A stretch of DNA of 64,000 nt from Candidatus Jettenia sp. AMX2 (GTDB taxonomy: Bacteria > Planctomycetota > Brocadiia > Brocadiales > Brocadiaceae). Under the pieces are notes generated by a model that was not told where the DNA came from, did not search any database, and saw only the letters and a list, made by a program, of their open reading frames with translations. The first letter of the stretch is position 1; each line of letters opens with the position of its first letter. Both the position numbers and the translations under genes were made by a program. The DNA is taken from contig CP129469.1 of NCBI GenBank assembly GCA_030583665.1, positions 2,223,043 through 2,287,042 on the forward strand, written 5' to 3'. This document shows positions 37,497-55,701 of the stretch, piece after piece.

Positions 37497-37525
37497 TTGA
37501 CAAGCAAATTATCGTTAAGTATAAT
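37497..37525 (+). promoter_or_regulatory. Consensus sigma-70 promoter of the lipoyl-protein gene
   Basis: A perfect TTGACA (37497-37502), a 17-base spacer and a perfect TATAAT (37520-37525). The leader to the start at 37609 is about 75 nt and ends with AAGGAGAACCA. This predicts strong constitutive expression. Confidence 0.8.
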
Positions 37526-37608
37526 TCAGTTCCTTAATTTACGAAGAACCTCAATATGATTTCAGTACTCCGATGAAAATAAAGCCTTAATAATTAAGGA
37601 GAACCAAT

Positions 37609-37947
37609 ATGAGAGTTGAAGTAGAATTGCCTGAAGTAGAGGATAGCGGTGACGAAGCAACTGTTTCCTTTTGGTATGTAGAAGAAGATGAAGAGGTTGA
37701 AGAAGGCGAGGACCTCGTTGAGATGATCACGGAAAAGACAACCTTCAACGTCACTGCCCCTGTATCCGGCAGATTGGTTGAAATACTCGCTCAGGAAGGT
37801 GATGTGGTAAAAGTAGGCGATATTATGGCTCTTCTTGAAACTGAAGACGAAGAAGAAGAGGAGGAAGAGGAGGAAGAGGAGGAAGAGGAGGAAGACGAAG
37901 AAGACGAAGAAGACGAAGAGGATTATGATTATGACGATGAAGAATAA
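37609..37947 (+). CDS. Free-standing lipoyl-domain protein with polyacidic tail
   Basis: The 112-residue protein is one biotinyl/lipoyl-like domain (about 1-78) followed by ~34 residues that are almost all Glu or Asp, with two Tyr. The domain has the E2-type layout: LPEVEDSGDEATV, then VEEGEDLVEMITEKTTF, then APVSGRLVEILAQEGD. Lys43 in the hairpin (TEKT) sits where lipoate is attached. There is no E3-binding or catalytic domain. Known free-standing lipoyl carriers include GcvH and LbpA, but this one is closer to an E2 domain. The partner enzyme is unknown and no dehydrogenase subunit lies nearby. The promoter and ribosome site are both near consensus. Confidence 0.85.
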   Translation: MRVEVELPEVEDSGDEATVSFWYVEEDEEVEEGEDLVEMITEKTTFNVTAPVSGRLVEILAQEGDVVKVGDIMALLETEDEEEEEEEEEEEEEEEDEEDEEDEEDYDYDDEE

Positions 37948-38042: not shown

Positions 38043-39077
38043 ATGTCTTTTAAAGTGGTATCTTGCCAGGACAAGGTCGTAAGACTCTTTAAAGATGCTA
38101 TTAAAAAAAACCGTCTGGCACATGCTTACATTTTTGCAGGTCAGGAAGGTGTCGGTAAAACGCTATTTTCAAAAGAATTGGCAAAGATGGTCTTTTGCAA
38201 ACATCCGGGTTCAGATGCGTGTGACAACTGCAATGCCTGCAGAAGGATTGAGAATAATACCTATTCGGATCTTTTTTCTATACTTCCTGAAAAAAACAGC
38301 AAAGTCATTAAGATCGATCAATTAAAGCATCTTCAGGATATGCTTACTATCAAACCTCTTGAATCTGCACACAAGATGGTAATTGTTCAATCGGCAGACA
38401 GGATGAACGAGGAAGCATCCAACTGCCTGTTAAAAACCCTGGAAGAGCCACCATTTTATGCAATCATACTACTTCTTGCAACCTCATTGGATTCTGTCAG
38501 GGACACCATCCGGTCAAGATGCCAAATTGTAAGGTTTGCTCCCCTCTCAGATGATACCATAAAAAACATTCTGGTAAATCGTTACCAAATAAATGATAAA
38601 CAAGCAGAACAATTAGCCAGCATCTCTCAAGGAAGCATAAAGAGGGCAGTATTACTTTCCAATACAAATACCCCTGAAAAAAGGGACTGGCTGATTGATC
38701 AACTTTTGAAATCAGGACTTCAAGATCATTTAACTTTTTCAAAAGAACTCTTTCAGGAGTGGCATATTCAGGAGATAGATGTACTGGAAGAAAAACGCCT
38801 CATTATAAAGGAATTGATATTCTCAATCCTTCTTTATTATCGTGATTTGCTTGTATGCAAGACAGGAGGAAGTGACATTTATAATAAGGGCCGGAAAGTC
38901 GCTCTGCTATCCAAAAGCAGTTCAATATCGGAAGATGCACTGTTTCGCATAATACAGGCAATTAAAACATCATTTGAATATCTCGATCGTAATGCGAACA
39001 TCACATTACTGGTCGAGAATATGATAGCAAAGATTTTCTATCTTCAGTTCAACAACGCACTGCAGTCACCATCATGA
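38043..39077 (+). CDS. holB: DNA polymerase III subunit delta' (HolB)
   Basis: The 344-residue AAA+ clamp-loader subunit has a P-loop-like segment GQEGVGKTLFSKELA (about 34-48). The zinc module is visible as CKHPGSDACDNCNACRR (about 54-70). A sensor region follows (LKTLEEPPFYAIILLLATS, SRCQIVRF). The SRC motif acts in trans as the arginine finger. The C-terminal helical domain is present. A related gamma/tau subunit would carry a longer tail, so delta' fits best. It converges on ileS with a 99-base gap. Confidence 0.9.
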   Translation: MSFKVVSCQDKVVRLFKDAIKKNRLAHAYIFAGQEGVGKTLFSKELAKMVFCKHPGSDACDNCNACRRIENNTYSDLFSILPEKNSKVIKIDQLKHLQDMLTIKPLESAHKMVIVQSADRMNEEASNCLLKTLEEPPFYAIILLLATSLDSVRDTIRSRCQIVRFAPLSDDTIKNILVNRYQINDKQAEQLASISQGSIKRAVLLSNTNTPEKRDWLIDQLLKSGLQDHLTFSKELFQEWHIQEIDVLEEKRLIIKELIFSILLYYRDLLVCKTGGSDIYNKGRKVALLSKSSSISEDALFRIIQAIKTSFEYLDRNANITLLVENMIAKIFYLQFNNALQSPS

Positions 39078-49624: not shown

Positions 49625-51241
49625 TTAATGCCTGTGCGCATGGCCTGCGCCTTCGGCTTCTTTTTTCTCCGGAATTTCCCCAACAACAGCATTGGTTGTA
49701 AGCAGCAACGCAGAAATACTTGCACCATTCTGTAAAGCCGTTTTTACAACCTTAGCTGCATCGATAATCCCCGCTTCAACCATATCAGTGTATTTTCCAT
49801 GATACGCATCGTAACCAAAATTACCCGAACCTTCTTTTACTTTTTGAAGGATAACGGCGCCTTCAAGGCCGGCATTTTCAGCTATCTGCTGAATGGGCTT
49901 TTCGACAGCCATTTTAACAATATTTATACCAACCTTCTCGTCTCCCTTAGTTGGCAGGGTGTCCAACACCTTTGATGCCCTTATAAACGCAACCCCTCCG
50001 CCGGGTAAAATACCCTCTTCTATAGCAGCCCGTGTAGCATTTACCGCATCTTCAATACGTAATTTTTTTTCCTTCATTTCAACCTCGGTAGCTGCTCCAA
50101 CATTAATCTGGGCAATGCCGCCGGAAAGCTTTGCAAGCCGCTCCTGCAACTTTTCCCTGTCATACTCTGAGGTAGTTGTTTGTATCTCTGTTTTTATTTG
50201 TGAAATTCTTCCCTGAATTTCTTTTGGATCGCCGGCACCTTCAACGACAGTCGTCTTTTCCTTATCAATAATAATCTTCTTTGCGCTGCCCAGATCAGCA
50301 AGCTGTATTTCGGAAAGCTGTATCCCTAAATCTTCAAATAATGCTTTGGCGCCTGTAAGAACAGCAATATCACCCAACATTGCCTTTCTTCTGTCACCAA
50401 AACCCGGCGCCTTGACAGCAGCACAGTGCAGCGTGCCGCGGAGTTTATTGACGACAATGGTAGTTAACGCTTCGCCCTCTACATCCTCGGCAATAATAAC
50501 GAATGGTTTTCCTGCCTTGGCAATTTTTTCCAACAAAGGAACCAAATCTTTTATAACAGACAATTTTTTTTCATAAACCAGTATATATGGATTCTCAAAC
50601 ACCACTTCCATTGTTTCGGGTGAGGTCACAAAATAAGGAGATAAATATCCCCTGTCAAACTGCATGCCCTCAACCAAATTAACTGAAGTCGCCAGGCTTT
50701 TTCCCTCTTCCACGGTTATCACCCCATCCTTACCCACCTTTTCCATTGCATCTGCGATTTGCTCCCCAATCTCAGCGTCATTGTTTGCAGCAATTGTGGC
50801 AATTTGGGCAATTTCCTTTTTCCCTGAAATCCTGATACTCATAGAGGTGAGCTCTTTTGTCAGTGCCTCTACTGATTTTTCAATGCCTCGCTTTATATCT
50901 ACAGGATTGGCGCCTGCCATGATGTTTTTGAGACCTTCTGCATATATCGCCTCGGCAAGAATTGTCGCTGTAGAAGTGCCGTCACCTACCATGTCATTTG
51001 TTTTCGAGGCAGCCTCCCTTACCATTTTTGCCCCCATGTCCTCATACGGATCTTCAAGCTCGATTTCCTTTGCAACGGTAACGCCATCATTCACAACGGC
51101 AGGAGAACCAAAGCTTTTTTCAATTACAACATTACGGCCTTTCGGACCTAAAGTAACCTTGACGGCACGAGCCAGTTTCTCTATGCCACGTTTAACAGCT
51201 TCACTGGCTTCATGACCATAGATGATTTTTTTTGCAGCCAT
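49625..51241 (-). CDS. groEL: Chaperonin GroEL, operon copy
   Basis: The 538-residue 60-kDa chaperonin has an intact equatorial domain ([35 protein letters not shown]). The apical and intermediate segments are normal. The C-terminal tail is unusual: it ends EGAGHAHRH instead of the common GGM repeats. It starts 17 bases after groES with AGGAGG in between. A second GroEL at 54064 has a different tail, so the two may serve different clients. It is expected to form the cage with the GroES of the same operon. Confidence 0.97.
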
Positions 51242-51258
51242 TACAACCTCCTGAAATA

Positions 51259-51546
51259 TTATTCAACAACAGCCAGAATGTCATCCTCAGACATTAACAG
51301 ATACTCCTCACCACCTATCTTCACTTCTGTACCACCGTAAGAACTAAATATCACCTTGTCACCTTTTTTAACCTGAAAGCCCGTCCGCGCGCCGCTCTTC
51401 AACATTTTTCCATCCCCAAGAGCGGTAACAATGCCCTCCCTGGGCTTCTCTTTCGCTGTATCAGGCAGCACAATCCCCCCCTCCGTCTTCTCTTTAGCTT
51501 CAATCCTTTTTATTAAAATCTTATCACCCAATGGCCTTACATTCAT
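51259..51546 (-). CDS. groES: Co-chaperonin GroES
   Basis: GroES has 95 residues from ATG 51546 ([20 protein letters not shown]), with AAAGGAG upstream. The mobile loop segment ([16 protein letters not shown]) and the C-terminal [10 protein letters not shown] are typical. The frame is open back to an ATG at 51603 that overlaps the stop of the receiver gene by four bases. The 19 extra residues do not fit the family, so 51546 is chosen. It is the only groES in the window, although there are two groEL genes. Confidence 0.95.
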
Positions 51547-51599
51547 AAAACGAGACACTCCTTTCTTTTTCCACGGTCCAGTTAAAACATGTAACAGAC

Positions 51600-52022
51600 T
51601 CATTTATAAAAATAATATTTAGCAATAACCTGCTCTACGGAATCTTGTAATATATGAATATTGATAGGCTTCGGTATCAGAGTATACGCATTTTCACAGA
51701 TAAGATCTATCTGAAGTTCTTTCGATATATCCGCAGATATAAAAATACAGGGAATGAGGATCTGCATCTCTTCTTTTATGATCTTAAACGTCTCGAGACC
51801 ACTATAATCGGGAAGGTGTACATCCAGAATCAGGAGATGCACCTCTTCTGCCTTAGCAATCTTAACAGCTTCCCGTCCGCAACTGGCAAGGTAAGTAATA
51901 TAACCCTTCGTTTCAAACACATCTTTCAAACTATCACGACAGGATTTATCGTCATCCGTTATAAGAAGCGAGTAGTTCCTGGCACAGGGGTCTAATACTG
52001 CCATCATATTGAAAACCCTCAT
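51600..52022 (-). CDS. Single-domain response regulator (receiver only)
   Basis: The 140-residue protein is one CheY-like receiver domain. The acidic pocket (LLITDDDKSC), phospho-acceptor Asp in LILDVHLPDYSGLE, the Ser switch in IFISADIS and the Lys in LIPKPINI are all visible. There is no output domain. Start options are 52022, 52007 and 52004. GAGGG lies eight bases before 52007, which I favour. It precedes groES by about 53 bases, and the -24/-12 promoter at 52052-52070 reads into it. It is probably the first gene of a three-gene operon with groES-groEL. Its sensor partner is unknown. Confidence 0.9.
   Translation of the reverse strand: MRVFNMMAVLDPCARNYSLLITDDDKSCRDSLKDVFETKGYITYLASCGREAVKIAKAEEVHLLILDVHLPDYSGLETFKIIKEEMQILIPCIFISADISKELQIDLICENAYTLIPKPINIHILQDSVEQVIAKYYFYK

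Positions 52023-54063: not shown

Positions 54064-55701
<1,638 letters not shown>

Follow-up and report, generated by a model that had tools for sequence, protein, structure and literature searches.

A free-standing E2-type lipoyl-domain protein with a conserved promoter in anammox bacteria, and its planctomycete family of probable lipoate carriers

The window analyzed here is the whole stretch of 64,000 nucleotides at G000:C1:2223043-2287042 in the 3.46-Mb single-contig genome of Candidatus Jettenia sp. AMX2. It encodes a small free-standing lipoyl-domain protein, called the carrier below, which is followed on the same strand by holB (Table 1).

Table 1. Features of the carrier locus, in window coordinates
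Feature	Position	Strand	Basis
Promoter TTGACA-N17-TATAAT	37497..37525	+	12/12 consensus; conserved in relatives
Ribosome-binding site AAGGAG	37596..37601	+	Sequence; AAGGAG-like site retained in Brocadiaceae relatives
Free-standing lipoyl-domain protein, 112 aa	37609..37947	+	PF00364, 2e-13; orthologues across Brocadiales and Planctomycetota
E2-type lipoyl domain, residues 1-78	37609..37842	+	Profile match, solved-structure matches, AlphaFold2 model
Lys43 codon, predicted lipoyl attachment site in beta-turn	37735..37737	+	Alignment and model
Acidic tail, 34 residues (32 D/E), disordered	37843..37944	+	Composition; AlphaFold2 model
DNA polymerase III delta' subunit (holB), conserved downstream neighbour	38043..39077	+	TIGR00678, 6e-58

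The Pfam family PF00364 (Biotin_lipoyl) matched residues 4-75 with 50.4 bits, the curated cut-off being 22.1. The best partial NCBIfam matches were E2 components, and the closest solved sequences were E2 lipoyl domains. The AlphaFold2 model was a barrel (pLDDT about 80-90) in which Lys43 occupied the hairpin turn between strands 35-40 and 45-49. Thus, the single E2-type lipoyl domain with Lys43 described by the first-pass annotation was borne out, as were its acidic tail of about 34 residues, its perfect promoter and its ribosome site. The carrier shares fold, Lys position and sequence similarity with E2 lipoyl domains such as that of Thermoplasma acidophilum (2l5t, 38% identity, structure search), but it is encoded by a separate gene and lacks a subunit-binding domain. 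It consists of this one domain, with no catalytic 2-oxoacid_dh domain, and is not an E2 acyltransferase. The GcvH family PF01597 (GCV_H) was not among its Pfam matches, and the PF01597 matches of the genome lay elsewhere. That the protein carries biotin instead is barely conceivable. Biotinyl domains belong to the same Pfam family, and BCCP domains were returned by the fold search among the structure neighbours that came after the E2 lipoyl domains. However, the MKM turn motif of biotin carriers (BCCP) was absent, the lysine being set in lipoyl-type DKA/EKT motifs (TEKTTF in the window and TDKA in outgroups), E2 proteins were the best sequence matches and the linked genes concern lipoate, not biotin.

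The promoter was exact, with its 17-nt spacer, in 28 of 28 Brocadiaceae carrier loci, which rules out a chance match as its source, and these promoters had common flanking sequence (CTTGACAA..AGTATAAT). Among the Scalinduaceae carrier loci it was exact in 11 of 12, with a 16-nt spacer. The carrier loci of family f2 had no TTGACA-N17-TATAAT promoter, and the gene there lies inside an operon. The whole window genome contained 13 exact matches to TTGACA-N17-TATAAT, including one site counted twice in overlapping contig ends, versus one match to the reversed pattern. The carrier promoter is under selection, and the carrier is probably expressed at a high level and abundant.

The tail of the window's carrier was disordered in the model (pLDDT about 52). 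The 28 Brocadiaceae tails varied from 12 to 46 residues with 75-100% Asp/Glu, and were encoded by a mix of GAA, GAG, GAT and GAC codons; their charge is kept while their length drifts. Ten consecutive GAR (Glu) codons are found once in the 3.46-Mb genome, at the carrier, so that the tail is not an ordinary trait of this genome. The alignment showed no acidic tail in Scalinduaceae and most other orthologues. Judged from these sequences, the tail is a Brocadiaceae trait and not among the common features of the wider family; it is therefore an added feature, one that the basic function cannot require.

The first-pass annotation had proposed a search of relatives for the gene and its neighbours. 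Orthologues were detected in most of the Brocadiales genomes searched, in relatives within the class (families f6-f9) and, when 294 evenly sampled genomes were screened, across many further families of Planctomycetota; lpd, lipB, lipA and holB recurred beside them. Family f1 is Brocadiaceae, f4 contains Scalindua and f2 is Ca. Bathyanammoxibiaceae, to which its member Bin_313 has been assigned (PMC10467342). Many of the relatives are metagenome bins, and genes in GC-rich loci were called mechanically, with backing from tblastn. In a tree of 73 domains, the carriers separated from the E2 lipoyl domains (support 93/91). This suggests a single carrier branch apart from the E2 lipoyl domains, a split that is tentative because the tree was built from 81 columns with a midpoint root. 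The family was defined as stand-alone domains of the carrier branch linked to lipA, lpd, lipB, metVF or holB; the window gene encodes such a domain, lies in that branch and has holB directly downstream.

The gene neighbourhoods were compared across the family, and a neighbour missing near a contig end was not counted as evidence of absence. Among the loci examined, 48 had holB behind the carrier in the same orientation. Upstream, also on the same strand, were LipA in 22 loci (eight families), Lpd in 16 loci (five families) and LipB in 11 loci (four families), the identities of key neighbours having been checked against NCBIfam (TIGR01350, 3e-143; TIGR00510, 3e-105). Tmk followed the carrier in eight loci. 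Complete lpd-lipB-lipA-carrier-tmk-holB sets were found in three loci (L241, L242 and L244), and several f9 genomes displayed the order lpd-lipB-lipA-carrier-holB. The lipA stop overlapped the carrier ATG in Ca. Bathyanammoxibiaceae and in L211. MetV and MetF were encoded downstream of the carrier in four loci of three families, MetV directly after it, as lpd-carrier-metV-metF in L209 and L212 and as carrier-metV-metF in L243 and L245. Families such as f41 and f88 had no lip or lpd gene near the carrier. In three f41 genomes (L253, L254 and L255), the gene behind the carrier encodes an ApbE of the FMN transferase type, and L213 has such a gene upstream; in total, four genomes have it next to the carrier or close to lipA.

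In the window's own family, Brocadiaceae, neither Lpd nor LipA adjoins the carrier. The earlier statement that no oxidoreductase is adjacent thus holds for the window but fails in relatives, where Lpd lies upstream. Since linkage to lpd, lipB and lipA is found elsewhere, this absence is a local peculiarity of f1 and f4, and the earlier conclusion that the pathway is unknown missed a linkage that is conserved outside Brocadiaceae.

From these arrangements, the carrier is most likely a lipoylated, diffusible E2-type protein turned over by Lpd, belonging to a family whose commonest setting is an lpd-lipB-lipA-carrier-(tmk)-holB operon; we give this reading a probability of about 0.6. It rests on that operon and on the carrier-metV-metF setting, which is twice preceded by lpd. 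LipB and LipA would place lipoate on the hairpin lysine (Lys43 in the window), and Lpd would oxidize or reduce the lipoyl arm with NAD(H), both steps being suggested by gene linkage. As a diffusible carrier, the arm would transport two electrons in dithiol form or an acyl group, and electrons or a group would pass between it and another enzyme. The gene has parted from lpd and lipA in Brocadiaceae and Scalinduaceae, where it retains holB behind it and has the strong promoter of perfect consensus; the tail was added in Brocadiaceae. The mobile and probably abundant lipoate carrier put forward by the first-pass annotation is supported by the exact promoter, by the linkage to lpd, lipB and lipA and by conservation of the lysine.

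The same annotation had made its reading depend on conservation of Lys43 in orthologues. With one copy taken per genome locus, Lys occupied the attachment site in 70 of 81 aligned copies (about 86%), while 10 were non-Lys and one, from G051, was ambiguous because of an insertion at the site. The lysine was present in all copies sampled outside the class. The non-Lys residues were E in six f2 genomes (the ambiguous copy being the seventh), N in two Scalindua and S in two f6 paralogues; since these groups sit apart from one another in the tree, about three losses were counted. Conservation thus held for most of the family and failed in some lineages, where purifying selection nevertheless continued. 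The dN/dS values were 0-0.13 within the K-less f2 copies and about 0.20 in the Scalindua pair, compared with 0.01-0.07 among Brocadiaceae pairs, which argues against pseudogenes in Ca. Bathyanammoxibiaceae. The K-less loci still adjoin lipA, with overlapping genes, and in f2 also lpd. In f6, the K-less, acidic-tailed copy precedes holB and in L216 also follows lipB and lipA, and the K-bearing copy is placed with lpd and metV-metF.

Because the lysine was lost about three times under retained purifying selection, part of the carrier's role may not need the cofactor. These losses, the persisting overlap with lipA and the strongly acidic surface and tail are consistent with a lipoyl fold whose main job is free of lipoate, such as a scaffold or regulator binding lipoyl synthase, Lpd or another partner. 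We regard this as unlikely, since the lysine persists over great distances. Moreover, the f2 genus g18 is the most diverged, and one of its genomes (G042) has lpd-lipA-holB and no carrier, which suggests decay after loss of the lysine. In the K-less f2 lineage, there may be either a second, cofactor-independent role or a protein in the course of being lost.

The window genome encodes LipB and LipA beside a PDH E1a-E1b-E2 operon, and GcvH and Lpd are also present; therefore, lipoate is available. An E2-type domain in a genome with a PDH operon could serve the pyruvate dehydrogenase complex in trans as an additional lipoyl domain. This is highly improbable, as the carrier was never beside a PDH operon in the loci read, and a PF00198 E2 was not detected in six Scalindua genomes having the carrier (G035, G038, G041, G052, G056 and G057), which indicates that the carrier is independent of PDH. 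The Scalindua genomes without a detectable E2 retain GcvH, and most also have a LipA match. Nearly every Brocadiales genome encodes a second GCV_H protein of about 160 aa with a weaker score besides the canonical GcvH (in the window genome at G000:C1:1869108-1869461).

The linkage to lipB and lipA could also reflect a relay in lipoate assembly, in which the carrier first receives the octanoyl or lipoyl group and hands it on to E2 and GcvH, the part that GcvH plays in Bacillus subtilis. We consider such a relay very unlikely, because canonical LipB and LipA modify their clients directly, no amidotransferase was seen among the carrier neighbours, the linkage to lpd would be left unexplained and the K-less carriers would be unable to relay.

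For the preferred reading, a lipoylated carrier turned over by Lpd, the MetV/MetF pair is the best lead to a partner enzyme, being the most suggestive recurrent enzyme pair beside the carrier in three families. MetV had no NCBIfam match; its name was assigned from the sequence and from a position ahead of MetF. Searching with the Pfam profile PF12225 found one such MetV-type protein in most Brocadiales genomes, and when linkage was checked metV/metF were not linked to the carrier in Brocadiales, lying elsewhere. That the dihydrolipoyl carrier couples NADH via Lpd to methylene-tetrahydrofolate reductase (MetV/MetF), and that this was inherited and made abundant in anammox bacteria, is a doubtful proposal. 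If it is true, electrons would enter one-carbon metabolism or the Wood-Ljungdahl pathway by a route that depends on lipoate. In several Brocadiales loci (L267 at G000:C1:3210256-3224537, L269 and L274), MetV/MetF adjoins an FAD/NAD oxidoreductase of about 690-710 aa, a candidate electron donor of methylene-THF reductase in anammox bacteria.

To our knowledge, few proteins carry lipoate other than those of the 2-oxoacid dehydrogenases and of glycine cleavage. LbpA disclosed a new role for the lipoate cofactor. The LbpA of sHdr sulfur oxidizers is a free-standing single lipoyl protein linked to its own lipoate-attachment genes, with a dihydrolipoyl dehydrogenase gene joining the linkage in archaea (PMC6067878). 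The carrier, too, stands alone with one lipoyl domain and shows genetic linkage to lipoate-attachment genes. However, LbpA resembles GcvH and is tied to hdr genes and to special ligase and radical-SAM enzymes, whereas the carrier is E2-type and tied to canonical LipB and LipA and to Lpd; neither hdr nor lipoate-ligase genes were seen among the carrier neighbours read. P64K of Neisseria (1gjx, among the fold matches) is an Lpd with a fused lipoyl domain and so pairs the two in a similar way, but carrier and Lpd are two genes with LipB and LipA between them, and are not adjacent in the window's family. GcvH is also free-standing, but it has about 130 aa and its own Pfam family, and one is encoded separately in the window genome. 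By this comparison, the carrier would work most like LbpA and the Lpd enzymes with a fused lipoyl domain, and, being E2-type and separately encoded, would be a member of neither class. A search of the available literature found nothing on lipoyl domains in anammox, on free-standing lipoyl proteins or on lipoyl with MTHFR and Lpd; papers on anammox with lipoate and on Kuenenia with lipoyl were unrelated by title and abstract. A second LbpA-like family, with its own lpd-lipB-lipA operon in planctomycetes and a conserved promoter in anammox bacteria, would point to an undescribed lipoate-dependent step. Anammox bacteria are important for global nitrogen, and the carrier neighbourhoods yield a short list of candidate partners.

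Two further observations concern the genome. Its contig ends (G000:C1:1-13309 and C1:3446727-3460033; L287 and L288) repeat each other over 13.3 kb with 99.985% identity. The chromosome is probably circular, with its overlap left untrimmed, and genes within the repeat are counted twice because the ends overlap. The window also encodes two GroEL-like proteins within about 5 kb, one of them beside a GroES-like gene (49625-51241 and 51259-51603 on the minus strand, 54064-55701 on the plus strand), all named from the start of their sequences alone.
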